Below are positions 6,758 to 35,573 of a DNA stretch of 36,672 bases, piece by piece. Numbering within the stretch: position 1 is the stretch's first letter; each line of letters opens with the position of its first letter. Under the pieces are notes generated by a model, which saw only the letters and a program-made list of their open reading frames with translations, made no database searches and was not told the origin of the DNA. A program made the translations under genes and the position numbers. Source of the DNA: Planctomycetota bacterium (lineage in GTDB: Bacteria; Planctomycetota; Planctomycetia; Planctomycetales; Planctomycetaceae); assembly GCA_003671275.1 (NCBI GenBank), contig QWPB01000156.1, positions 1-36,672 of the forward strand, written 5' to 3'.

Positions 6758-9031
6758 CTCCGGGCTGCCTGACCCGACCTCACTGGCGAACGCGTAGGCC
6801 AGAGCGAGACCTTGCCAGACCTTGCCTTCGCGTGTGTGCTGCTTGCGAAAGCCGGATTGCTGGCCTCGGTGTTCCATCCATTGCGAGAACCGTTTGTGCG
6901 ACTGCACACGCTCGCCGGACTCGGTGGCCCAGCGTTTGTACTCGTCGTACAGGTGCTGGCTGGGAACGCGGGAGTCGCGACGGAGGACGCAGCAGTCGGC
7001 CAGGAACTCGCCGAGCGTGTCCATCTCATCCCGGTAGTCGGCTGTGGCCATGCGGACCTCGGGAGGCTCGCCCAGTCCGAGTTGCTGCCAATCGAGGCAG
7101 CCTTGAATCGCCCAATTCAGAATGCCTGGTAGCTCGGCCTGAAAGGCAGCCAGCAGGTCATCCATCGGTTGGCGTTCGGCATCCGGGATACGGATCAGGA
7201 ACGGCACCAGTCGCAGACGATCCCAGATGGCATCGTCCGTTCCCGAGATGCGCGGCCGATAGTTCGTGCTCAAGAAGATCTTGAAGTGCGGCGTGAACTC
7301 GAACCATTCTCCTCGCATGAACCGCGCCACGACACGATCACCACCGGTGATGTCTTTGACGAGGGCTTCATCCAGGCGGTTGCCGTCGCCGGTCTCGCTG
7401 GCCGTCACCAGCCGGACGCCACGCAGCCGTGCGAGGTCGTTGGGGATCGTCTCGCCGCGTTTGGCCAGCAGCGTCTGTGTCGGCGTGCGGGCCGTATAGC
7501 CATCGCCCAGCAGAAGCCGCAGCCCCTCCAGGAACACGGTCTTCCCGTTCTTGCCACCACCGTGCAGGATGAACATGCAGCGTTCGGCGGTCGACCCCGT
7601 CAAGGTGTAGCCGACAGCCCGCTGGACGAAGCTGACCAGATCGGCGTTGTCGTCCATGATCCGCCCGAGGAACGCTCGCCAGCGAGGACAGTCCGCTCCC
7701 GGAACATGCGACACCGCCAGACAGCGCGTGATCAAGTCCTCCCGGCGGTGCGGTTGGATCGTGCCCGTGCGAAGATCAATCGTGCCATTGGCGCAGTTGA
7801 GCTGCCACACGTCGCGGTCCAGGCCATCAGGCCGGATCGGGATGTGAGGTTCGCTGCGGGCCAGGGCCAGCATCGCCCCAATCCGCGAAGCGGCTTCCGA
7901 CACGACTGCGTGATGGTGCAGCAGTTCCCGCTCCTTGGCATCGACCAGTTTTCCGACTTCCGCGTAAATGCTCAGCACGGTCTCCTTGGCGAGCTGTTCC
8001 GCGACGGCGGGTTCGAATGACCAGTGTGTGCCGGTCCAGCCGAGCCACTGGTTGAAGTCGTAGCAATGCCGCAGGTTCGCCCCATGTCGACGGACCAGCC
8101 GCTGGGCGTTGCCATAGTCCGTGCAGCCCAGCCCACGCAGCAGATCGGGAGCGGCCAGACGGTCGTCCGTGATCTTGGGTTGTCGCTGCCGAACCTCTTC
8201 TGCTCCGGCCCGATACCCACTGGAGAACGTGACCCGCGTCTCCTCCGGCTTCTCCGCCTTCAGGCCACACAGCTCCGCTCCGCGTTCGCAGAGCGTGCGG
8301 GCTTCGGTTTCACTGATCCGCTGCTTGGCACACTGATAGGCCGCCCGATTGAGTTCATCGTTCCGCCAACCAGGCGCGACGAAGCCTCGCAGGAAGTTGA
8401 GCGTGGTCTGATTCAACCGCCGCGAGGGTTCAGCAGGAAGCTCGTGAATCAGGCAGGACTCGAACGTGCCGCTTCGCCAGACATCGCCGCCCTCTTCGTT
8501 CGGATCGTTCGGCAGCCACACCTGCGTGCGCTTGGCCGACTTGGGGAAGCACTCGATATCCCCTCGCCGATTGAAGCCCCAGGCTTTCGCCCAGGCCACA
8601 AACTGCTCCACCGGGACAGCCTCCGCCAGGGCGTAATAGCAGTGCAGCCCCCGACCGCTCTTGCTGGTGAACTGGAGCGACTCCGCTCCGAGGAAACGAT
8701 CAATGGCAGCTACCAGATGCACATTTCCGCCATCACCCGCATGGTCGTCGAAGTCGCAACAGAACCGACTCACTCGACCATCGCGATGCGGAACCAGCCC
8801 CAGTCGCGTGGCTCCGGTGATCGAGTAGCGTCTGCCGTCCTGCGTGATCGAGGCGAACTCTTCGCTCGTCAGCGTGCCTGCCCGGAACGCTGTCACTGCG
8901 CGGGTCACATCGTCCGCTCCGTTCACCCAGCCGGGGCCATCCGCAGCCCCCTTGGCATACAGCAGGCTGGCCGTTTCCGGTTCGCAATGCGGGAGCAACC
9001 AGTCGAGTAATGAGCATCGATCAACCGTCAT
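6737..9031 (-). CDS. P4-type phage/plasmid primase-helicase (primase A)
   Basis: About 764 residues. The N-terminal part has primase-polymerase features: CCDFDDHAGDGG for metal-binding acidic residues and FTSKSGRGLHCYY. A D5_N-like region and a superfamily 3 helicase follow. The Walker A is GGGKNGKT (about residue 492), an acidic motif lies in VTASETGDGNRLDE, and the sensor motif is FLSTNYRP. Such proteins both prime and unwind at the origin of phages, satellites and plasmids. I use the ATG at 9031 because AAGGAGGT lies just upstream. It overlaps the previous gene by 11 bases. Its 3' end overlaps the GTGACGG repeats, its probable binding site. It is unrelated in sequence to primase B at 16322 to 18571. 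Confidence 0.85.
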   Translation of the reverse strand: MTVDRCSLLDWLLPHCEPETASLLYAKGAADGPGWVNGADDVTRAVTAFRAGTLTSEEFASITQDGRRYSITGATRLGLVPHRDGRVSRFCCDFDDHAGDGGNVHLVAAIDRFLGAESLQFTSKSGRGLHCYYALAEAVPVEQFVAWAKAWGFNRRGDIECFPKSAKRTQVWLPNDPNEEGGDVWRSGTFESCLIHELPAEPSRRLNQTTLNFLRGFVAPGWRNDELNRAAYQCAKQRISETEARTLCERGAELCGLKAEKPEETRVTFSSGYRAGAEEVRQRQPKITDDRLAAPDLLRGLGCTDYGNAQRLVRRHGANLRHCYDFNQWLGWTGTHWSFEPAVAEQLAKETVLSIYAEVGKLVDAKERELLHHHAVVSEAASRIGAMLALARSEPHIPIRPDGLDRDVWQLNCANGTIDLRTGTIQPHRREDLITRCLAVSHVPGADCPRWRAFLGRIMDDNADLVSFVQRAVGYTLTGSTAERCMFILHGGGKNGKTVFLEGLRLLLGDGYTARTPTQTLLAKRGETIPNDLARLRGVRLVTASETGDGNRLDEALVKDITGGDRVVARFMRGEWFEFTPHFKIFLSTNYRPRISGTDDAIWDRLRLVPFLIRIPDAERQPMDDLLAAFQAELPGILNWAIQGCLDWQQLGLGEPPEVRMATADYRDEMDTLGEFLADCCVLRRDSRVPSQHLYDEYKRWATESGERVQSHKRFSQWMEHRGQQSGFRKQHTREGKVWQGLALAYAFASEVGSGSPECDGSNF

Positions 9032-12275: not shown

Positions 12276-12998
12276 ATGCGACGCCCCCTGAACCAACTCC
12301 CGCCCGGAACGCGGTTCCGACAACCGGACCTCGACATCACCGGCACGCTGTTGATGGTCAACGAATGCCGGGCGCGAGTCCGAATCGACCAGCCTCAGCA
12401 ACTGGTCGAGTTCACCGGCCCGGATGGCTCGATCAGAACCTTCCGGGCCTCACGCAATCACGAGACTTCCTGGGCCCCGACCGTGTTGGTCGAGGCCCTT
12501 TCCTTTGACCCCCTGATCGAAAGGGACACGACGATGGCAACCAAGAAAGCGACGAAGAAGGCTCCGGCCAAGAAGACCACCAAGGGCGCGACGAAGGCGG
12601 CGTCAAAGTCCACGACCAAGACGCCCCGCGCCGCGAAGGTGGAAGGAAAGCTCAGTCAACTCGACGCGGCGGTCAAGGTGCTCACCGAATCGGGTGAGCC
12701 GATGACGACTAAGGCGATGATCGATGCGATGGCCGCCAAGGGGTACTGGACAAGCCCCGGTGGCGCGACCCCGGCGCAGACGCTGTATTCCGCCATCCTC
12801 CGCGAGCTGCAGAAGAAGGGGGCCGACGCCCGGTTCACCAAGGTCGAACGGGGCCAGTTCGCCCTCAACGGCGGGACCACGCCAACGCCTAAGGCTGCGG
12901 CCAAAGCCACGGGCAAGAAGGCCGCGAAGAAGACGGATGCCAAGCCCGCCGACGGGACGCCTGGTCCCAAGGCGGTCTCCGAACTCTTCAAGATCTGA
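12276..12998 (+). CDS. Fusion of a small beta-rich protein with a histone H1-like winged-helix protein
   Basis: 240 residues in one open frame. Residues 1 to 86 (RPLNQLPPGTRFRQPDLDI, LLMVNECRARVRI) form a small beta-rich unit. From the ATG at 12534 begins a second unit of 154 residues, MATKKATKKAPAKKTTKG, a Lys/Ala/Thr-rich tail like histone H1. A winged helix of HARE-HTH type follows (LDAAVKVLTESGEPMTTKAM, YWTSPGGATPAQTLYSAI), then another Lys/Ala tail. GAAAGGGA lies before the internal ATG, so two proteins may be made from one frame. I believe these are separate genes in relatives, which would make this a lost stop. The winged-helix part likely binds DNA. Confidence 0.7.
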   Translation: MRRPLNQLPPGTRFRQPDLDITGTLLMVNECRARVRIDQPQQLVEFTGPDGSIRTFRASRNHETSWAPTVLVEALSFDPLIERDTTMATKKATKKAPAKKTTKGATKAASKSTTKTPRAAKVEGKLSQLDAAVKVLTESGEPMTTKAMIDAMAAKGYWTSPGGATPAQTLYSAILRELQKKGADARFTKVERGQFALNGGTTPTPKAAAKATGKKAAKKTDAKPADGTPGPKAVSELFKI

Positions 12999-13007
12999 GG
13001 TGCCATC

Positions 13008-13295
13008 GTGACCAACGCCAATGCACAGATCGCCGATTCGATCCGCGAGGTGACCGCCGCCGTTCAGTCGGCGATTGCCGAAGGGTATCGCTCTCGGATG
13101 ATTGACGCCGATGATCTGGTCGAGGTGCTCTTGTCCATCGCGGACCGCCTCGACCCGCCGGTGCGGGAGACGACGAACGACGTCGCGATCCCATGTCCCG
13201 AGTGCAGCGAAGCGAACTCAGATCGCCTGATCTGGCAAGACGACGAATTCGTCCGCTGCGACACCTGTGGGACGATCTACTCTCCAGGCAACTGA
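13008..13295 (+). CDS. Small zinc-ribbon protein
   Basis: 95 residues from a GTG at 13008. The N-terminal 50 residues form helices (IADSIREVTAAVQSAIAEGY). The C-terminal part has two paired cysteines, CPEC and CDTC, separated by about 22 residues, which is a zinc ribbon. It lies 9 bases after the winged-helix gene, so it shares that operon. A nucleic-acid or protein contact role is usual for such ribbons. No specific function is visible. The 260 bases that follow hold no gene I can support. Confidence 0.6.
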   Translation: MTNANAQIADSIREVTAAVQSAIAEGYRSRMIDADDLVEVLLSIADRLDPPVRETTNDVAIPCPECSEANSDRLIWQDDEFVRCDTCGTIYSPGN

Positions 13296-13556
13296 TCTTC
13301 GAATCCGGGTCCGCCCCGGTGACGCCCCACAATCAACAGTGCGGGCGTTTTCTCGTTAAGTGACGTATCGCTCCCGTAGCGACGTGGGCCAAACGGGAGA
13401 GCTCTCTGAGCCAGATGCCAAGGGAACTCATGAATCGCTTGCAGTAGAAGGCTGTAGAGACGGTGGCTTTGACTATGGATTGGACCGGACTGACAATGCT
13501 TGCGGGCTCGACACGAATCCTTCCCGCCAAGACATCGCAGGACTGGGCACACCTGA

Positions 13557-14216
13557 ATGACTCCAAAGGCCGCATTCGATCAGATTGTCGCACGCGCGGA
13601 ACACTTGATCGCACTCAACGGTGAGCTGACAGGCGGCCTCCCACTGACCACTCATCTGACAGCTTCTGATCGCACGTTCCTGAACGACGACGTCCTTCGG
13701 TGCGCGCTGGTCCTGGCAGTCTCTGCCCTAGATCGCTACGTCCACGACCGTGTCACGAAAGGCGTTGCAGCAGCATTCAAGAATCCCACGCTAACGCGAG
13801 AGCAGGAAGACTTCGCGATTCCTGTCAAGTTGGCATTTGAGATTGCAGCCAAGGCGTCAAAGTCTAACCAGTCTCCAAGGCAGACTCGTGCTGCGAATAT
13901 CGTTCGCAATCAGATTCAAGAACTGCTCCATAAGCGCCCATTTCAAAGCTGGCGCGAGATCGAAGTTGCATTTTCCTTGATCGGCATCACAGGGATTGCC
14001 GGCCACATTCAGAACGCGATGGGCGTTGGAAGCATCGCTCCGGTCAAGGAACAGCTAAACACCATAGTTCGGACGCGGAACCTCATCGTACATGAGGGGC
14101 ACATTCGAAGGCACCAGCGAGGGGGGAAGCCTACACTGCTCGAGATCACCTCGGTTGAGGTAACTGCTGCCGTGACCTTCTTGAAGCAGATCGTGAATCA
14201 TCTTGAATCCGCCTGA
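13557..14216 (+). CDS. HEPN-domain protein, possible RNase (RiboL-PSP-HEPN-like)
   Basis: 219 helical residues. Near the C-terminus is RTRNLIVHEG, giving an Rx4H motif (R-NLIV-H), the catalytic signature of HEPN ribonucleases. Helical features upstream (VLAVSALDRYVHDRVTKGV and GIAGHIQNAMGVGS) fit the RiboL-PSP-HEPN branch. HEPN proteins often act in abortive infection or toxin-antitoxin systems. No nucleotidyltransferase antitoxin is adjacent. It is a plus-strand gene set into minus-strand phage genes, with lower GC than its neighbours, which suggests a carried moron that protects the lysogen or blocks rivals. Defence activity is inferred. Confidence 0.65.
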   Translation: MTPKAAFDQIVARAEHLIALNGELTGGLPLTTHLTASDRTFLNDDVLRCALVLAVSALDRYVHDRVTKGVAAAFKNPTLTREQEDFAIPVKLAFEIAAKASKSNQSPRQTRAANIVRNQIQELLHKRPFQSWREIEVAFSLIGITGIAGHIQNAMGVGSIAPVKEQLNTIVRTRNLIVHEGHIRRHQRGGKPTLLEITSVEVTAAVTFLKQIVNHLESA

Positions 14217-26167: not shown

Positions 26168-26439
26168 ACCGGACGCAGACCCCCGAAGAATCGCGAAATG
26201 TGCCCGCACAGCGCGATGACATGACTGGATTCTCGTCGCCAGATGAGCCAGGACTGTGTGAGCCCGTACCAATCCGCCGACCGTTGTCGCTGGCGTGGGT
26301 TTCGGACGAGTTGATCGCCGAAACGCAGCGACTCTGGTCAGCCCGGTACGGGCGCGAGGTCTCGCTGGACGAAGCCATCGAGATTCTCAGCAACGTCAAA
26401 CGATTCGCCGAGATGCTATTGGAAAGGAGCGAAGCATGA
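26164..26439 (+). CDS. Small protein between regulator and recombinase
   Basis: 91 residues. A disordered, Pro-rich first half is followed by a helical second half (SDELIAETQRLWSARYGREV, then DEAIEILSNVKRFAEMLLER). It overlaps both neighbours by ATGA, so all three are probably made together. It may be a recombination directionality factor, since these are small and encoded beside large serine integrases, but there is no sequence evidence for that. The family is not recognised. Confidence 0.5.
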   Translation: MNRTQTPEESRNVPAQRDDMTGFSSPDEPGLCEPVPIRRPLSLAWVSDELIAETQRLWSARYGREVSLDEAIEILSNVKRFAEMLLERSEA

Positions 26440-27941
26440 ACGTGGTGATCTGGGCACGCGTGTCGTCACGCGAGCAGCGAGAGGGGTATTCGATCGACGC
26501 CCAACTGCGGGCCAACCGCGAGCGGGCGCAGAAGAACGGCTGGACGATCGTCCGTGAGTTCCTGGTGGCGGAATCGGCCAAACGTGGTGCCGAGCGGACC
26601 GCCTTCAACCAGATGGTGGATTGGGTGAAGGCTAACGCCAAGCGGGAAAACCTGCGGGCGATTCTCAGCCACAAACTCGACCGCATCTGCCGCAACATGC
26701 GGGACGCGGTGCGGATGCAGGAACTGGAGGACAAGTATGGGGTCTCGCTGGCGTTCGTGGAGAACCAGTTCGGTCCCGGCCCGGCGGGGGCGTTGTCCTT
26801 CAACGTGATGGCGGCCGTCGCGCAGTACTACAGCGACAACCTGCGCACCGAGGTGCTCAAGGGAATCGATGAGCGGGCCAAACAGGGGTGGCAGCACAGC
26901 CGCGCACCGTACGGCTACATGAACGTGAAGGAGGATCGAAATGAACCGATCCAGCCTCATCCCGTAAACTCCAAGGCGGTGATGCGGCTGTTCGAACTGT
27001 ATTCCTCCGGCCTGCATACGTTTGACTCGGTCTGTCAGGCGCTGCACGACGAGGGGTTCACATACCAGAAGACGCATCCGAAGTTCCACCGGACAGCGGT
27101 TTCGTACATCCTCAACAACCGATTCTACATCGGCGAACTGCGGCGCGGCGGTGCCTACTACCAGGGCCGGCACCAGCCGCTGATCGATCGAGCCACGTTT
27201 TTATCCTGCCAAGATGTGCTCAACGGGAAGAACCGCCGCGCCACGCCGCAGGTCAACATGCCGCTGTCCGGTGGACTTCTGACTTGCCGGCACTGCGGAT
27301 CGTTCATCACGGGCGAGCGGATCAAGCGCAAGCTCAAAGGGGGCGGCGTGCGGGTCCACGACTATTACCGCTGCGCCAACAATTACCCGGACGACGATCA
27401 CCCCAGCGTGCGATGGCGAGCGGACGATCTGGAAGATGCGATCGTGGCGGACCTCGCCAGTTTCCGACTGCCCGACGACGAGGTGATCGACTGGTTTCGG
27501 GTCTCGCTACAGAACGCGTTCACCGACATCACCGACCTGCAACGGAACCAGCGCAGCGCCCAAACCAAACGCCGCGCCGAGTTGATCACGATGAACGATC
27601 GACTGCTCAACGCGTTCCTGGCCGGGTCGATCGACGAGGCTACGTTCAACGCGAAACTGGCTGCACTTCGCGACGAACTGGCGGTGATCGAGGCCACGCT
27701 GGGCAAGGTGTTCACGGTCGAGCCAACCGACGTTCGGGCCGCGCTGGCGATCTTCGAGTTCTCGCAAAAAATCCCGGAAATCTGGCGCGGTTCAAAGATG
27801 CTCGAAAAACGGCGGATTCTCGAAGTCGTATCTTTGAACCGAGTGCTCGGCGACGTAACTCTCGACCTGGAAAAGAGAAAGCCGTTTGACGAACTCGCCA
27901 AACGGCCTTCAATCCAGTTAAGTCGGGGCGAAAGGATTTGA
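26436..27941 (+). CDS. Large serine recombinase (prophage integrase)
   Basis: 501 residues. The N-terminal resolvase domain starts VVIWARVSSREQ, with the catalytic Ser in ARVSS (about residue 10) and an Arg-bearing SHKLDRICRN. The Recombinase domain spans about 150 to 280 (RFYIGELRRGGAYYQGRH). A zinc ribbon has CRHC and a later YRC (about 285 to 320), then a coiled-coil segment. It cuts all four strands through a Ser-DNA link and joins attP with attB. GGAAAGGAG lies before the ATG. The last seven codons overlap the 3' end of tRNA-Pro, so the att site almost certainly lies here. A diverged fragment of a sister enzyme is found at 28412 to 28780. Confidence 0.9.
   Translation: MNVVIWARVSSREQREGYSIDAQLRANRERAQKNGWTIVREFLVAESAKRGAERTAFNQMVDWVKANAKRENLRAILSHKLDRICRNMRDAVRMQELEDKYGVSLAFVENQFGPGPAGALSFNVMAAVAQYYSDNLRTEVLKGIDERAKQGWQHSRAPYGYMNVKEDRNEPIQPHPVNSKAVMRLFELYSSGLHTFDSVCQALHDEGFTYQKTHPKFHRTAVSYILNNRFYIGELRRGGAYYQGRHQPLIDRATFLSCQDVLNGKNRRATPQVNMPLSGGLLTCRHCGSFITGERIKRKLKGGGVRVHDYYRCANNYPDDDHPSVRWRADDLEDAIVADLASFRLPDDEVIDWFRVSLQNAFTDITDLQRNQRSAQTKRRAELITMNDRLLNAFLAGSIDEATFNAKLAALRDELAVIEATLGKVFTVEPTDVRAALAIFEFSQKIPEIWRGSKMLEKRRILEVVSLNRVLGDVTLDLEKRKPFDELAKRPSIQLSRGERI
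27923..27941. other. Probable prophage attachment-site edge at the tRNA-Pro 3' end
   Basis: These 19 bases are both the 3' end of tRNA-Pro (minus strand) and the last codons of the integrase (plus strand). Integration at a tRNA 3' end restores the tRNA from element DNA, so this is where one att half is expected. The partner copy is not in the window and should lie left of position 1. Confidence 0.5.
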
Positions 27942-27997
27942 ACCTTCGGCCTCCTGCTCCCAAAGCAGGCGCTCTAGCCAAGCTGAGCTACGCCCCG
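27923..27997 (-). tRNA. tRNA-Pro(TGG)
   Basis: Read on the minus strand, a full cloverleaf folds. A 7-bp acceptor stem pairs CGGGGCG with CGCCCCG, with discriminator A at 27923. The D arm is GCTCAGCTTGGCTAGAGC. The anticodon stem CCTGC/GCAGG encloses loop TTTGGGA with anticodon TGG (proline). The T arm is GAAGG TTCAAAT CCTTT, with one G-T pair. No CCA is encoded. The 3' end overlaps the integrase stop codon by 19 bases, the mark of an element integrated at a tRNA gene. Confidence 0.9.
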
Positions 27998-28123: not shown

Positions 28124-28411
28124 GGTGATGTCGGTTTGACGGACAGTCCAACTCCTTATTTTCTTGCGGCCATGGGGCCGGTCTGGTGGAGTTCGAACTG
28201 GTGGGGTGATGGGGAATGCGACATCACGGTCGATTGCGATTGGATCAAAGATCACTGTGCCCCCGTAGCGAATCTCATTGCAGGTTGCGGGATCTTCATC
28301 TCGCATACGGGCGATGATTACGAGATCGAAGTCGCTCATGACGAGCTGGTCGGCAAGGGGCTGGTCCTGGGGAGCAACTGCTCTCTGGATGTCGCGCTGG
28401 GCTGCGGGTTG

Positions 28412-28779
28412 CAGACGCACCCGAAGTTCCATCGCACAGCTGTCTCGTACATGCTCAACAACCGGTTCTATATCGGTGAAATCAAACGCGGCCGCAACTT
28501 CTACCAAGGGCGACATCGACCGTTGATCGACCGGTCGACGTTCCAGACCTGTCAGGATGTCCTCAGCGGGAAGAACCGTCGGGCAAAACCGCAGGTCAAC
28601 ATGCCGCTGTCCGGCGGCCTCTTCACGTGCCAGCATTGTGGAGCATTCATCACCGGCGAACGGATCAAGCGGAAGCTCAAGGGCGGCGGCGTCCGCGTCC
28701 ACGACTACTACCGCTGCGCGAACAACTACCAGGATGAGAACCACCCCAGCGTCCGCTGGCGAAGCGACGATCTGGACGA

Positions 28780-28780
<1 letters not shown>
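28412..28780 (+). pseudogene. Internal fragment of a second large serine recombinase
   Basis: About 123 codons, from THPKFHRTAVSYMLNN to SVRWRSDDLDE, match the middle and zinc-ribbon part of the integrase at 26436 to 27941, at roughly 80 percent residue identity by eye. The catalytic domain and the coiled-coil end are absent. The DNA is diverged, so this is a sister element's gene and not a recent copy. Similarity begins abruptly near 28412 and ends near 28780, where the truncated SNF2 helicase begins on the other strand. Confidence 0.75.
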
Positions 28781-30150
<1,370 letters not shown>

Positions 30151-30383
30151 GTGTCCCCCACGTCATGGCCCTTGGGCGTGGCGAATTGCTGGATAGAGTG
30201 CGGATCTTCGCTGCTGCGCATGCTACCGATTCGTGACAGGGAACGGTAGCGGTTGGATTTGCACGATTGCGGACCGAGAACTCAAATTGATCGCCACCGT
30301 CGACTGGGAATACACGGCCATTCTTGTCGCAGAGTTGATGAACAGTTTCCACCCCCGTTCATCAATCACTGAGGCGCGTCGAA

Positions 30384-30857
30384 ATGGTCGAGACCCGAGA
30401 ACAACAACTTCGCGGCACACTGAAACGCTTGGTAGCGCTCCACGCCGCCGAAATGTCATTGCTGGAGGAGTCTATCGCGATTCTTCAATCCGAACTCGAA
30501 GCACTCTCGCGTCCGAAGCAACCAGTGGGGCAGACAGAAGTCCAACCAATCGATCCCAACCTGCCAACAATTGACCGCAGTGTGATGTGTGTGGTGTATC
30601 GCGGCCAAAGCTGCTTTCTCGGGAACACACTGATGCTCAAATTCCTGGAACGACTCGCACGTCGACCGAATCGATACGTGAGCTACGACACATTGCTCAG
30701 CGAAGTCTGGAACTCGATTCGGGAACATTCCTCGGTTCGAAGCGTCGTCAAAGAGCTTCGTGCCAAGCTGCGGGCAGCCGGGATGTCGAGGCTTTCGGAC
30801 GCAATTGATGGTCATGTCTCGGGCCACTATGGCCTTATGCTGGACCGCACGAAGTAG
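30384..30857 (+). CDS. Coiled-coil plus OmpR-type winged-helix regulator
   Basis: 157 residues. An N-terminal coiled coil (HAAEMSLLEESIAILQSELE, residues about 18 to 42) would make a dimer. A basic linker is followed by a domain from about 75 that fits the OmpR/PhoB winged helix: GQSCFLGNTLMLKFLERL, LLSEVWNSIREHSSVRSVVK, ELRAKLRAAG, and a final hairpin GHYGLML. No receiver domain is present. It is followed by direct repeats at 30862 to 30903 and by the recombinase-ParB-ParB genes on the same strand, so it may regulate them. The 230 bases upstream separate it from the divergent helicase. Confidence 0.65.
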   Translation: MVETREQQLRGTLKRLVALHAAEMSLLEESIAILQSELEALSRPKQPVGQTEVQPIDPNLPTIDRSVMCVVYRGQSCFLGNTLMLKFLERLARRPNRYVSYDTLLSEVWNSIREHSSVRSVVKELRAKLRAAGMSRLSDAIDGHVSGHYGLMLDRTK

Positions 30858-30861
30858 GCCG

Positions 30862-30903
30862 TCCCACAGGAATCCCACAGCGATCTACCTCGTGATCCCA
30901 CAG
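30862..30903. repeat. Three direct repeats TCCCACAG before the recombinase
   Basis: TCCCACAG occurs at 30862, 30873 and 30896, 11 and 23 bases apart, close to one and two turns of the helix. They lie between the winged-helix gene and the recombinase start. Spaced copies on one face of DNA fit tandem binding by an OmpR-type regulator or a recombinase. This is inferred from spacing alone. Confidence 0.45.
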
Positions 30904-30988
30904 GCATGTGAGAGAATTTCTTTCATCACCAAGCGAGTGCAGGAGGCACACTCCGGGAACTTTGAACAAGTCGCCAGGATCATTGTCC

Positions 30989-32533
30989 ATGCCTTCTTCG
31001 CCTGAATCCCACCGCATTCCCGCCGCCCAATACGTGCGAATGTCGACCGAACATCAACAGTATTCGACGACGAACCAGGAGGACATCATCCAGGAATATG
31101 CCGTCGCCCGCGGCTATGAAATCGTCCGCACCTATGCCGATGAAGGAAAAAGCGGCCTCAATGTGGCTGGGCGGGAAGCATTGCGACGAATGATCGACGA
31201 CGTGCAGACGAAGAATGCTGGGTACTCGGCGATTCTCGTGTACGACATCAGCCGCTGGGGGCGTTTTCAGGACGCGGACGAAAGCGCCTATTACGAATAT
31301 CTCTGCAAGCGATCAGGAATCGATGTTCACTACTGTGCAGAGCAATTCGAAAATGATGGAGCACCCACTTCGACGATCATCAAAAGCGTCAAACGGGCGA
31401 TGGCTGGCGAATACAGCCGTGAGCTGTCTTCCAAAGTGTTCAAGGGACAGTGCCGATTGATCGAACTTGGCTATCGCCAGGGTGGTGCCCCGGGATTCGG
31501 CTTCCGCCGGATGCTCATTAACCAATCTGGCGAAGCCAAGGGGGAGTTGAGCCGGGGCGAATACAAGAGTTTGCAGACAGATCGTGTGGTCCTGGTTCCG
31601 GGCCCCGAAGACGAAGTGCAACTCGTGCGACGGATTTACCGCCGATTCGTTGACGAAGGGAAGCCAGAGTCTGAGATCGCAGAGGAGCTCAATGCCGAGG
31701 GAATTCTCACCGACTTCGGTCGACCCTGGAATCGCGGTACGATTCAGCAGGTGCTGACGAATGAAAAATACATTGGGAACAATGTCTACAATCGCGCCTC
31801 CTTCAAACTGAAGAAGAAGCATGTCGAAAACGCTCCGGAAATCTGGGTCCGTAAGGACGGTGCGTTCCCGGCGCTGGTGGCACCGGACCAGTTCTTCGTG
31901 GCACGAGGCATCATTCAAGAACGGAATCGTCGGATGTCTGACGACGACATGCTCGGGAAGCTGCGATCCCTGGCAGCTGAACATGTTACGCTCTCTGGCC
32001 AAGTGATTGATGCCGCCGATGGCATGCCACTGAGTGCCGCCTACCGGTCTCGGTTCGGAAGTCTCTTGAAAGCATACCAACTGGCCGGTTATCGCCCGAC
32101 ACGCGATTTCGACTATGTGGACATCAACCGTCGCATTCGTGCCGCTCAGCCGCCGCTCATGACTGACCTCGTCAATCGACTGACACAAATGGGAGCCACC
32201 GTGTCGCGAGATGCTAGTTCCGGTCTGATGCTCATTAACGGCGAGTACAGTGCCCAACTTGTCTTGTCTCGCTGTCGACAGACTGCCTCTGGATCACTTC
32301 GCTGGAAGGTGGAGTTTGAGGGAAGAATTGCACCAGACATCACCATCCTGGGGCGAATGGACGAGTCGAACGAGAATCCCGTGGACTACTACCTACTTCC
32401 GGTCATGGATATTTCCAGTCCCCGGTTGATGTTGTGTGAGACAAACGGAGCTCACTTGGACACATACCAGTTTGAATCACTGGACTTTTTTACATCACTG
32501 GCGGGTCGGCGGCGGATCGAGGTGGCAGCATGA
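30989..32533 (+). CDS. Large serine recombinase of the recombinase-ParB-ParB module
   Basis: 514 residues. The resolvase domain begins AAQYVRMSTEHQQYSTTNQ, with the catalytic Ser in RMS (about residue 18) and the Arg-bearing VYDISRWGRFQD. The Recombinase domain is seen in IYRRFVDEGKPESEIAEEL and QVLTNEKYIGNNVYNR. Unlike the phage integrase, the C-terminal 200 residues lack a CxxC zinc ribbon and instead form an unfamiliar mixed region (LPVMDISSPRLML). AGGA lies 9 bases before the ATG at 30989. Its stop overlaps the next start (ATGA). The partners are two ParB-like proteins, which is not the setting of a normal phage integrase. Target and reaction are unknown. Confidence 0.85.
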   Translation: MPSSPESHRIPAAQYVRMSTEHQQYSTTNQEDIIQEYAVARGYEIVRTYADEGKSGLNVAGREALRRMIDDVQTKNAGYSAILVYDISRWGRFQDADESAYYEYLCKRSGIDVHYCAEQFENDGAPTSTIIKSVKRAMAGEYSRELSSKVFKGQCRLIELGYRQGGAPGFGFRRMLINQSGEAKGELSRGEYKSLQTDRVVLVPGPEDEVQLVRRIYRRFVDEGKPESEIAEELNAEGILTDFGRPWNRGTIQQVLTNEKYIGNNVYNRASFKLKKKHVENAPEIWVRKDGAFPALVAPDQFFVARGIIQERNRRMSDDDMLGKLRSLAAEHVTLSGQVIDAADGMPLSAAYRSRFGSLLKAYQLAGYRPTRDFDYVDINRRIRAAQPPLMTDLVNRLTQMGATVSRDASSGLMLINGEYSAQLVLSRCRQTASGSLRWKVEFEGRIAPDITILGRMDESNENPVDYYLLPVMDISSPRLMLCETNGAHLDTYQFESLDFFTSLAGRRRIEVAA

Positions 32534-33426
32534 ACACAGAACTTGATCTCCAGATCCGCTTGATTCCCGTCAAGCAAATCATCGTGTTGAACTCGCGAGA
32601 ACGCGGCAAGAAGAAATTCGCTCAGATCGTGGCCAACATCGGAAAACTCGGTCTAAAGCGTCCAGTCACCGTTTCGCCTGCGGAAACCAAAAACGGTCAA
32701 GCCATGTACCATCTCGTGTGCGGGCAGGGTCGCCTGGAGGCCTACGTGCAGCTCAAAGAGGAGTTCATTCCCGCACTGGTCATTGAAGGCACCAAGGAAG
32801 AGTTGCTCTTGATGAGCTTGGCCGAGAATGTCGCGCGTCGCCAACATACCACGTTGGAACTCGTCCGAGAGATCACCACATTGAAGGAGCGAGGTTACTC
32901 CCATCCCGAGATTGCTGCGAAAACGGATCTCACGGTCACCTATGTGCGGGCCATCGTGCAGCTACTGGCAAAAGGCGAAGAGAAGCTACTACAAGCCGTC
33001 GAGAAGGGTCAGATCCCGGTGAGTGTCGCGATCACGATCGCCACCTCGGATGACAAAGGCATCCAGCGAGCGTTGACAGAGGCATACGAACGGAACGATC
33101 TACGCGGAAAGGCACTGCTGCGGGCACGCCGTTTGATCGAGAACCGCCGCGTCCGTGGAAAAGGAATTCGTGGTGGGAAGAAGGCCACACCATTGCCACC
33201 GGTCTCCACCGACGAACTCCTAGAAACCTACCACAACGACACTCTCCGACAGAAGCTGACCGTCCAAAGGGCCAAGGTCTGTGAAACTCGACTTCTGTTT
33301 GCGACCGCCGCACTCAAACAACTCTTTCAGGATGAAAACTTCGTCACGTTGCTTCGAGCGGAAGGACTGGACTCGCTGCCGCAATACCTTGCCACTCAGA
33401 TCCTCGGTCAGGAATCCGCATCATGA
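32530..33426 (+). CDS. ParB/RepB-like protein 1 of the module
   Basis: 298 residues. The ParB N-terminal domain shows LIPVKQIIVLNSRERGKKKF, LGLKRPVTVSP, CGQGRLEAYVQL (the nucleotide-binding box, with Gly in place of the first Arg of GxRRxxA) and LAENVARRQHT. A helix-turn-helix follows (SHPEIAAKTDLTVTYVRAIV). The C-terminal 150 residues resemble the RepB-like domain of plasmid partition proteins. No ParA ATPase is encoded nearby, so ordinary partition is unlikely. It is coupled by ATGA to both the recombinase and ParB 2. It may guide the recombinase to DNA or hold a complex. Confidence 0.75.
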   Translation: MNTELDLQIRLIPVKQIIVLNSRERGKKKFAQIVANIGKLGLKRPVTVSPAETKNGQAMYHLVCGQGRLEAYVQLKEEFIPALVIEGTKEELLLMSLAENVARRQHTTLELVREITTLKERGYSHPEIAAKTDLTVTYVRAIVQLLAKGEEKLLQAVEKGQIPVSVAITIATSDDKGIQRALTEAYERNDLRGKALLRARRLIENRRVRGKGIRGGKKATPLPPVSTDELLETYHNDTLRQKLTVQRAKVCETRLLFATAALKQLFQDENFVTLLRAEGLDSLPQYLATQILGQESAS

Positions 33427-34319
33427 CATCTCAAATTCGATTGGCCTGTGAAACTTCGGTCGCTGTGGTTCCACTAGAACGCATCCGGCCAACACGTATC
33501 GTGGACCAGGCCACCAAGAAGTCTCGCAAGTACAAGTGCATTGAAGCCTCGATTCGGGAACTTGGATTGATTGAGCCGTTGGTCGTCCATCCTGAACGCA
33601 AGGGAGCGTCGAGCTTTATGTTACTCGACGGGCACATCCGGCTCGAAATCCTCAAGGATCTTGGGAATGATGGGGCAAAATGTCTCGTCGCCACGGATGA
33701 CGAAGCGTTCACTTACAATCACAAAGTCAATCGACTCTCCGCGATTCAGGAGCACTTCATGATCACTCGGGCCATCAAGAATGGCGTCAGCGAGGCTCGC
33801 ATGGCCCGCACGTTGAATATCGATCTCGCGTCTATCAAACAGAAACGTGATTTACTCGATGGGATTTGCCCGGAAGCGGTCGAACTCCTCCGTGACAAAG
33901 ATGTGCCCAGTGGGGCTTTGCGAGAACTCCGCAAAGTCAAACCGATGAGACAGATCGAAATGGCTGAACTCATCTGTGCTTCCCATACGTACTCCGCGAG
34001 TTACGCGAAGTGCTTGGTCATTGCGACGCCTCTGGAGCAACAGGTGGAACCAAATCGCCCGAATGATGTCCGTGGCCTCTCCGCCGAAGACATCGCCCGG
34101 ATGGAACACGAATTGGAAACCCTCAGCAAAGACTTCAAGATCATCGAAGAAACCCACGGCAAGAATACTTTGAATCTTGTGGTGGTGAACGGATATTTGA
34201 AACGACTGCTCGACAATGCTCGCATCGTCCGATTTCTGTCGCAGAATCACCACGAATTGCTCTTTGAATTTCAGAAGATCGCCGAGTCTCGCATGCTGCT
34301 GGATCCTATTGCCGATTGA
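33423..34319 (+). CDS. ParB/RepB-like protein 2 of the module
   Basis: 298 residues, the same length as ParB 1 but different in sequence. Features: LERIRPTRIVDQATKKSRKY, IRELGLIEPLVVHPE, LLDGHIRLEILKDLG (degenerate nucleotide box), YNHKVNRLSAIQEHFMI, then a helix-turn-helix (SEARMARTLNIDLASIKQKR) and a long RepB-type C-terminal helical domain. The loss of the double Arg suggests altered or absent CTP use. The start overlaps ParB 1 (ATGA). The stop at 34319 sits at the edge of the module, since the DNA beyond belongs to a broken methyltransferase gene on the other strand. Confidence 0.75.
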   Translation: MTSQIRLACETSVAVVPLERIRPTRIVDQATKKSRKYKCIEASIRELGLIEPLVVHPERKGASSFMLLDGHIRLEILKDLGNDGAKCLVATDDEAFTYNHKVNRLSAIQEHFMITRAIKNGVSEARMARTLNIDLASIKQKRDLLDGICPEAVELLRDKDVPSGALRELRKVKPMRQIEMAELICASHTYSASYAKCLVIATPLEQQVEPNRPNDVRGLSAEDIARMEHELETLSKDFKIIEETHGKNTLNLVVVNGYLKRLLDNARIVRFLSQNHHELLFEFQKIAESRMLLDPIAD

Positions 34320-35149
34320 GCCGGTTTCACCAAATCCCCCTTCACGTACACGATCTGGTGTTGGCGGTGCCAGTCGCTGGGGTAGAAGTTCTTGACTCGG
34401 CTGGATTCGAACAGGACGGGGCTGGGGAGGTACTTGGCTTGTTCGGGGCGGGTGTAGTACCAGAACGAGTTCGAGTTCCAGAACGAGACGTGGGTGGGAT
34501 CTTGGAATGCACCTCGGCCATCGGTGCTGGGGGTGAGGGTGAGGAACCAGCCGTTGGGGGTGAGGCAGCGGTGGGCCTCTTGCATGGTGTGGATGGGGTT
34601 GCGGAGGTGTTCGAGGGCGTCGTGGGCGCGGATGAGGCCGATTTCGCGGACTTCAAAGGGCCAGCGTTCGTTGAGGTCGGATGTGATGTCGGCACCTTGG
34701 AGGTCGATGGATTCGTAACCGGGGGCGGGGTCGATACCGCCACAGAGGTCGATCTTGCGGAGGCTGTTCAGGTCGCACCAGCGTTCGACGAGGGGGTAGA
34801 TGTACTGGTCGTGGATGTACAGCGTCTCAGTTTGGATGAATGCGTTCTGGTCGCCTCGGCAGGTGTTGGTCGGGTGAACGTGGTAGATGTAGAGGCAACG
34901 GTCGATGTGCTTCACGTTGCCGTGGATGTAGGACCGGCAAAGGAGGTCGTGATCGTCGAGGATGGCTCGTGAAGCGTCGTGGCCGCCGATGCGGTGGTAG
35001 AACGATGATCGCCAGGCCCGGACGTGGTTGGGAGCGAACCAGATCTTCGAGAATGACCAGGGGGATGGTTCGAACGCCACGCACTCGAACTGGGGCTGGC
35101 CATCCCAGGTGAACGGGCAATAGCGCCAGCCGAACTGCTCGTCGTATTT
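34320..35149 (-). pseudogene. Glycosyltransferase-methyltransferase fusion, truncated at both ends
   Basis: The N-terminal part (KYDEQFGWRYCPFTWDG, HVRAWRSSFYHRIGGHD, RCLYIYHVHPTNTC) is the C-terminal half of a GT2-type glycosyltransferase. A class I methyltransferase follows: KIDLCGGIDPAPGYESID (AdoMet loop), then IRAHDALEHLRNPIHTMQEA and GRGAFQDPTHVSFWN. The glycosyltransferase start is missing: at about 35150 the sequence joins a phage structural gene out of frame. The 3' end runs past KGDLVKP into ParB 2 DNA and stops at 34271. GC is higher than in the ParB genes. Such fusions occur in phages and bacteria that decorate surfaces. Here it is a broken piece. Confidence 0.7.
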
Positions 35150-35573
35150 CCGAGAAGTTGTAGATCGGGACATAGATGTCGACGCCTTCGACGTTGTCCT
35201 GAGTGACGCCGATCGCCCCGCCGAAGTTCGGAGCGGTCTTGCCGGGGACGGAGTAGCGGGCACTGGTCCCTCGTCCCTGAGTGATGTGTTGCGAGCCACC
35301 GCCGGTGTCGAACGAGAACGACGACTGCCCGGTCTCCGGTGGACTGGTTAGCCCATACCGCACCGTCCCTTCCCAGGTGTCTTCGGCGATTCGCTCGACA
35401 TGACTCGATTGGCGGACCAGCCCGGCGTACAACAAGGGTGAACCAGCGACGAGGGCACTCTTGGCCTCGGTATCGTCGTCCGTTCCTCGGATGATGTACC
35501 GCAGATCAGTCGACGCCCCCTCGCCCTGCGTCCCTTCGCGGCTGTCCCATTTTTCAGCAACGGTGATTGGCAT
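35150..35573 (-). pseudogene. 5' fragment of a phage structural protein gene
   Basis: About 141 residues from ATG 35573: MPITVAEKWDSREGTQGEG, RYIIRGTDDDTEAKSALVAG, ETGQSSFSFDTGGGSQHITQ and VEGVDIYVPIYNFSE. I associate this pattern with a conserved tail-region protein of planctomycete-type prophages, of unknown exact role. After NFSE the frame enters the glycosyltransferase fragment and becomes Arg/Pro-rich nonsense to 34827. It shows that a second, related prophage once lay here, and that it was broken at about 35150. Confidence 0.6.

Follow-up and report, generated by a model that had tools for sequence, protein, structure and literature searches.

Four adjacent genes of a planctomycete contig (QWPB01000156.1), encoding a winged-helix regulator, a serine recombinase (REC) and two ParB-type proteins of the RepB family (PB1 and PB2), appear to make up a single copy of a widespread, small integrative (mobile) unit with a length of about 3.4-4 kilobases (kb), a reading to which we assign a probability of roughly 0.57. 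Throughout, the window is the whole 36,672-nucleotide (nt) stretch of this contig that was analysed, and L-numbers denote loci fetched for comparison. A first-pass annotation of the window had offered, as one account of these genes, a self-moving element with partition-type proteins. We found that the order of REC, PB1 and PB2 (the trio) is kept across phyla, that the flanks vary and that the edges are sharp, all of which favour that account; self-movement itself we infer.

Both ParB genes lie behind REC in 134 of the 160 loci that we fetched, 80 from one scan of genome contigs and 80 from one of viral contigs (out of at least 577 and of 130 confirmed stretches, respectively), so the arrangement is not peculiar to the window. 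Among the 26 loci without both ParB genes, 22 have a cut REC or less than 1.9 kb of sequence after it; the true exceptions to the order are L033, L076 and L155, with L159 borderline. The REC proteins of 169 anchored loci form 114 groups at 90% identity, and the hosts of the trio, as labelled, are Planctomycetota, Verrucomicrobia, alpha-, beta- and gammaproteobacteria, Acidobacteria and Myxococcales. Within the window's own phylum, the REC query matched 17 of 294 sampled genomes at 1e-30, the window's genome counted: seven at 58% identity or more and ten at 29-39%, and in five of these ten distant genomes (L257-L261; REC 33-39% identity) REC, PB1 and PB2 again stand in order. In Escherichia coli, the trio is present in 651 of 5,426 complete genomes (12%), BL21(DE3) included, at one place each and always in the chromosome, with copies at least 80% complete in 617 genomes. 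Trio units occur in chromosomes, plasmids and prophage-like contigs, and no ParA is listed inside the annotated units that we inspected; given these varied replicons, the trio is not always part of a plasmid or phage replicon with ParA. One record stands apart: L023, a linear 13-kb 'plasmid' labelled Lactiplantibacillus plantarum (Bacillota), carries a REC 56.7% identical to that of the window and is possibly contamination.

In the window, the unit and its borders are laid out as follows (aa, amino acids).

30159..30383, no strand: interval holding the left edge; the similarity of the neighbouring SNF2-type gene to its relatives stops at 30158
30384..30857, plus strand: winged-helix regulator with a coiled coil, first gene of the unit, 157 aa (Pfam Trans_reg_C, 6e-8)
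30989..32533, plus strand: REC, serine recombinase (Resolvase, 5e-23; Recombinase, PF07508, 1.1e-20); reading frame open from GTG 30908
31937..32530, plus strand: C-terminal part of REC, no known domain (weak HNH_repeat match at its start, E 0.036)
32530..33426, plus strand: PB1, RepB/ParB family, 298 aa (Pfam RepB, 5e-23; motifs GQGR and ENxARR)
33423..34319, plus strand: PB2, RepB/ParB family, 298 aa (Pfam RepB, 7e-44; motifs DGHxRLE and YNxxVNR)
34271..35299, minus strand: methyltransferase-like gene, 3' end cut by the unit; the junction and PB2 supply its last ~16 codons
34320..34328, no strand: right edge of the unit; the intact paralog is similar from 34325 (blastn) or 34328 (by eye) onward

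The right edge is set by the minus-strand methyltransferase reading frame, which runs to its end inside PB2. Two paralogs of this gene, 87 and 88% identical, are present in the window's genome, and only one of them (L271) covers the gene end; it aligns from window position 34325, after which about nine residues of its own lead to a stop at 7238 (translation by eye). Because the intact paralog continues past the junction, we conclude that the unit cut the methyltransferase gene 5-9 base pairs (bp) past the PB2 stop, which agrees with the earlier placing of the right edge at the last stop codon. The unit has a G+C content of 0.54-0.56, below that of its left flank (about 0.60). Between related units in different surroundings, too, nucleotide similarity is lost not far from the borders: measured from the REC start and the PB2 stop, it ends at -688 and +6 for the pair L029/L032, at -542 and +10 for L082/L098, and at -503 and +129 for L052/L115, and other pairs share longer flanks.

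Edges of the unit could also be compared on Agrobacterium plasmids. The unit of pAtC58 (L022:9472-13375; 3.9 kb) is found at 96.9% identity in pAt1D1460 (L299:5001-8904) within different surroundings; two further records with this unit look like the same plasmid as pAt1D1460. A variant of a ~20-bp core, CCTTGAAnGGnAnTnGAACC, which looks like the reverse complement of a transfer RNA (tRNA) T-arm, is present at all four edges of the two units. L300 and L302 carry the C58 left flank through the core and lack the unit; because the sequence that follows differs from the C58 right flank, this empty site is one-sided. A comparable picture holds for L299: three plasmids that lack the unit match its left side, Fic gene included, exactly up to and including the core (as far as L299 5014-5022), and in others the match to its right flank sets in about 110-170 bp beyond the unit. 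Judged by eye, joining the left half of the C58 left core to the right half of its right core gives a sequence that differs from the L300 site by about two changes. Using a pattern built from the Agrobacterium sites themselves, we found 50 places in 3.6 Mb that deviate by no more than four changes. At most two changes separate six of them from the pattern: the right cores of L022 and L299, the L300 and L302 sites, and single places in L030 and L070. The left cores deviate by three (L022) and four (L299). Since REC is the sole recombinase inside the 3.9-kb unit, we infer that REC would make the strand exchange.

Several side observations stand beside these results. At the site in L302 that holds the trio unit in C58, a VapBC pair lies directly after the first core and is followed by a second core with three changes (12985-13892); this pair is possibly a cassette without a recombinase, as if it had entered the same site. 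An AbiEii or Fic gene ends about 10 bp from the left edge of the unit in L022 and L299, and the Agrobacterium units L303, L304 and L306 adjoin TniQ/TniB/Mu-type transposition genes and have DUF1403 to their left. A scan of the Agrobacterium core loci for tRNA genes found none.

As the chief rival to a mobile unit, the trio could be cargo that other, mostly tyrosine, integrases carry: a module for stability, defence or regulation, with REC doing a local job such as inversion or dimer resolution; we regard this as a serious, if on the whole unlikely, possibility. The two E. coli copies for which annotation was fetched belong to the ssrA island and directly follow an integrase gene, and several Rhodobacterales copies stand at the end of a tRNA-Met gene, some with phage tail genes behind them. 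In L068, L077, L097, L111 and L121, the tRNA-Met gene lies close to the contig start, 1.9-2.1 kb ahead of REC; at that place only its 3' part is present in L052 and L115, and in L115 an integrase-like gene (by eye) lies across the tRNA-Met fragment from the unit. The neighbours of the trio are often AbiEii, Fic, CoiA-like or restriction genes, many of them toxin- or defence-like; the Agrobacterium core looks like a tRNA end, and in L302 two cores enclose VapBC. Each of these features would suit cargo.

A number of results weigh against the view that the unit moves itself. A tyrosine-type integrase near the same tRNA or transfer-messenger RNA (tmRNA) end may do the moving, both in the fetched E. 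coli copies and in the prophage-like Rhodobacterales contigs, and repeated ~20-bp T-arm-like cores typically belong to tyrosine integrases rather than to large serine integrases. The window copy showed no edge repeat, and neither did L178, L179 and L186. In an edge-repeat scan of 95 units, in which exact repeats shorter than 10 bp scored 0, the mean longest exact repeat was 7.7, compared with 6.5 in mismatched controls, and six units exceeded the longest control repeat of 13 bp. A two-sided empty site was found nowhere, the L299 flanks occurring without the unit only one at a time, and no unfilled site was found for the window copy. Set against the cargo explanation, the 3.9-kb Agrobacterium unit holds no other recombinase, the gene table around the C58 copy, possibly incomplete, shows no integrase within 10 kb, and the edges hug the unit itself in unrelated backgrounds. 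On balance, we continue to prefer a small integrative unit.

Other candidate edges and sites were tried, with varied outcome. Long direct repeats, which favour the mobile reading, surround the unit of L164 (85%, 255 bp, one copy at -2314 to -2061, the other starting at the PB2 stop) and the E. coli-type units L185 (79%) and L182 (76%), where the ~262-bp copies span -526 to -264 on the left and start at +98 or +115 on the right. Five Sphingobium plasmids share one cargo site at which the module lies together with a CoiA-like gene and a divergent regulator; in L193 and L194 the module is missing there. An ~80-bp repeat (81%) flanks the module in L189, and L194 has one copy of it; recombination between plasmids is an equally good account of this difference, because the right flank of L189 resembles L021, not L194. 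An empty site proposed for L052 was rejected, as relatives share the right side only and the left flank is not syntenic; the left flank of L046 has many partial matches in its genus. The adjacency of tRNA genes in Rhodobacterales was likewise rejected as proof of targeting by REC, since a prophage integrase can explain it, and an excess of tRNA genes on the left side (19 against 7.8 expected) is not evidence, because 13 of the 19 form one array in L028.

Directly behind PB2, many units carry an element of ~107 nt that begins GGGGACCSGGACCC. Its hosts, as labelled, are alphaproteobacteria, except for two contigs labelled Proteobacteria and one labelled Binataceae (L043); viral contigs give no host. 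From 44 distinct sequences, we kept 37 for a covariation test after dropping those closer than 93%. The 25-pair structure, which was derived from the same 37 sequences on which it was tested, has 97.9% of its cells paired, compared with 92.0% in shuffles and 28-46% when slid, and 11 of its pairs are changed on both sides, compared with 4.4 in shuffles; none of 500 shuffles reached either value. Single-sequence folding energies were mixed: L058 (z -2.34) and L021 (-1.47) fold better than shuffles, L040 (0.11) and L122 (0.90) no better. The case for a structure thus rests on the covariation. In Rfam, the best match of one copy (L124), with E up to 5 allowed, scored 19.0 bits against a gathering threshold of 70.4. 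Variable hairpins follow the 107-nt core, and by eye the core itself has no guide-length variable loop in the 37 sequences.

In sets of 97, 76 and 33 sources, some of them overlapping, a model of this element (R1, threshold 66 bits) matched at 26, 21 and 20 places, respectively. No R1 match was found in the window, in the planctomycete loci searched, or in the E. coli-type units L175, L178 and L187. The units L022, L025, L299 and L303-L306 are also without it, and from those of Agrobacterium it follows that not every alphaproteobacterial unit has the element. In whole genomes searched under strict filters, the element occurs in 13 of 289 drawn from the class of G300 (the genome of L052), at 16 places that are all preceded by PB2 or a PB2 fragment. 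Among 25 genomes or records selected for carrying the trio, it occurs in 24, at 26 places, 25 of them with PB2 before it. With the one place common to both sets counted once, PB2 or a remnant of it stands beside the element at 40 of 41 places. The exception is a second element 5 kb behind the L046 trio, where element and following hairpins form a ~190-bp direct repeat around helicase-like and PIN-domain genes (L046:13338-18620). We regard the element as a covariation-supported candidate family beside the recombinase.

The first-pass annotation described the gene layout correctly: a coiled-coil winged-helix gene precedes REC, both ATGA overlaps (REC-PB1 and PB1-PB2) are present in the reading frames, and no ParA was found among the 9 window reading frames, a subset of the total, that were scanned with Pfam. 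An ATGA-type overlap occurs at the end of REC in 78 of 98 non-redundant units and at the end of PB1 in 73 of 98, more than expected by chance. The REC start at GTG 30908 is probably too early, because the matches of near relatives begin at residues 21-37 and an ATG is present at 30989. Two points of the earlier description gave way: the equal length of the two ParB proteins is a coincidence, as PB1 and PB2 differ in length in relatives, and the nucleotide box of PB2, which had been called decayed, is a family-wide alternative and not decay of the window copy. The PB1 family carries the motifs GQGRxEA and ENxARR, and at those places the PB2 family carries DGHxRLE and YNxxVNR; in this sequence comparison, the cytidine triphosphate (CTP)-binding-type motifs GxGR and ENxARR are retained in PB1 and not in PB2.

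As had been claimed, REC is without a zinc ribbon: it has no match to PF13408 (Zn_ribbon_recom), a domain that the other recombinase of the window (26295-27941) does match (2.8e-9). Its active serine is kept in 105 of 106 aligned proteins, the remaining one having a gap there, and the arginine of DxSR is present in all 106. The C-terminal part occupies the place of the zinc ribbon in other large serine recombinases, and its ~170 residues are conserved, with a mean column identity of 61% across 17 members. It has no match in the PDB at E below 0.1, and in Pfam two of the 17 members touch HNH_repeat (best 0.046) and one touches DUF4853 (0.068). Of interest beside REC is a joined protein in L252 (1005-3065), in which REC passes at about residue 375 into the zinc-ribbon C-terminal half of a recombinase like 26295-27941 (by eye); the contig also holds a second trio remnant. 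In the window, the 3' end of the zinc-ribbon recombinase 26295-27941 overlaps an opposite-strand tRNA-Pro gene (27922-27997), and a C-terminal piece of a similar recombinase (28136-28927) overlaps the end of a short SNF2-type reading frame (28726-30150).

We propose the following mechanism for the integrative unit. REC, with a new C-terminal domain and no zinc ribbon, would integrate and excise the unit. PB1 and PB2 are putative DNA-binding accessories that could act near the ends, helping to find or pair them; they may thereby stand in for the zinc-ribbon module in site recognition, synapsis or control of direction. The structured tail may be a cis site or an RNA cofactor at the right end, and the small upstream gene may control and limit expression of the unit. 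These accessory, tail and upstream-gene roles are suggested less strongly than the role of REC. A bolder version takes the unit for a serine-recombinase element of a new class. Two ParB-type clamps would choose and pair its sites in place of the zinc ribbon, in one branch a right-end RNA fold (or a folded single DNA strand) would work in recombination, and short toxin or defence cassettes that have the ends only could possibly be mobilised as well; this we consider speculative and unlikely.

The gene before REC varies with lineage, which leads us to conclude that the core unit is the trio and that the winged-helix regulator is a lineage-specific option. Relatives of the regulator occur in 20 other loci, namely 17 planctomycete loci (two from one genome), the viral contigs L107 and L109, and L041 (labelled Methylococcaceae). 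Elsewhere, the slot before REC holds a divergent protein with a KWTGAxERxxKNW-like motif (25 REC groups, by eye), a small CxxC...C-type protein or an XRE-like protein (also described by eye); one protein of the KWTGAxERxxKNW type and one of the CxxC...C type had no match in Pfam. Two kinds of Fic gene alternate to the left of otherwise matching units (L115, L068 and L077 versus L052 and L114). Directly behind some units, a DUF3987 gene (L060:13290-14672, Pfam) takes the place of the structured tail, with similar genes in eight other REC groups, and in the verrucomicrobial contigs L080 and L073 repeats resembling clustered regularly interspaced short palindromic repeats (CRISPR; GGGGCCGCGC... 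units, by eye) lie right behind the trio.

The trio could alternatively serve plasmid maintenance, combining ParB-type segregation with dimer resolution. PB1 and PB2 do belong to the RepB family, and REC is matched by 67 plasmid records; nevertheless, we consider this highly improbable, with no ParA seen in units, every one of the 651 E. coli copies chromosomal, and PB2 without the usual nucleotide motifs. Least probable of all is a programmed DNA-rearrangement device with exchangeable cargo. In its favour, otherwise unchanged units have one or the other of two Fic types left of the regulator, and the second L046 element yields a direct repeat flanking cargo genes; against it stands the finding that PB2 is missing beside the element at only 1 of 41 distinct whole-genome copies. 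Direct support was found neither for rearrangement of this kind nor for the defence device that the first-pass annotation had also suggested: PADLOC gave no match for REC or the window PB1, and solely its methyltransferase model was hit, in each case by the ParB part of a protein: PB2 (window 7e-4, E. coli 2e-7) and the PB1 of E. coli (0.01).

If REC moves the integrative unit, the pairing of ParB-type partners with a serine recombinase devoid of a zinc ribbon would offer a new route to site choice and direction. This would be relevant to the enzymes of genome engineering and would give ParB clamps a role outside segregation. As the trio is present in 12% of complete E. coli genomes and in BL21(DE3), the question is testable in laboratory strains. 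A full-text search of one open library of literature retrieved no title or abstract that describes the trio. In Paracoccus prophages, 11 of 15 serine recombinases are reported to fall into a single cluster whose integration sites are unknown (PMC6536676).

Among known systems, REC has the Resolvase and Recombinase domains in common with large serine integrases and transposases (TP901-1 Int, TnpX, SPbeta YokA, phiC31 Int), and its profile matches in the PDB include 3guv, 3bvp, YokA (9dxh) and TnpX (2mhc). It differs from them in having no zinc ribbon and a C-terminal domain with marginal Pfam matches and none in the PDB, and the trio differs in its conserved ParB pair as partners and, in Agrobacterium, in the repeated ~20-bp cores at its ends. 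PB1 and PB2 match the CTPase clamps of the ParB/Noc/KorB type and RepB of repABC plasmids (Spo0J 1vz0, Noc 7ol9, KorB 8qa8), PB2 more weakly; in contrast to those systems, no ParA is seen, the PB2 motifs are altered and the ParB pair stands behind a recombinase. IS110-type elements with their bridge RNA and TnpB elements with omega RNA have a structured non-coding element at one end, and the structured tail holds the same place beside its recombinase operon, differing in that no guide-length variable loop is seen by eye in its core. Finally, RIT elements consist of three tyrosine recombinases in a row, a conserved gene trio that moves as a unit; the trio described here is likewise a conserved three-gene unit, but one made of a single serine recombinase and two ParB proteins.

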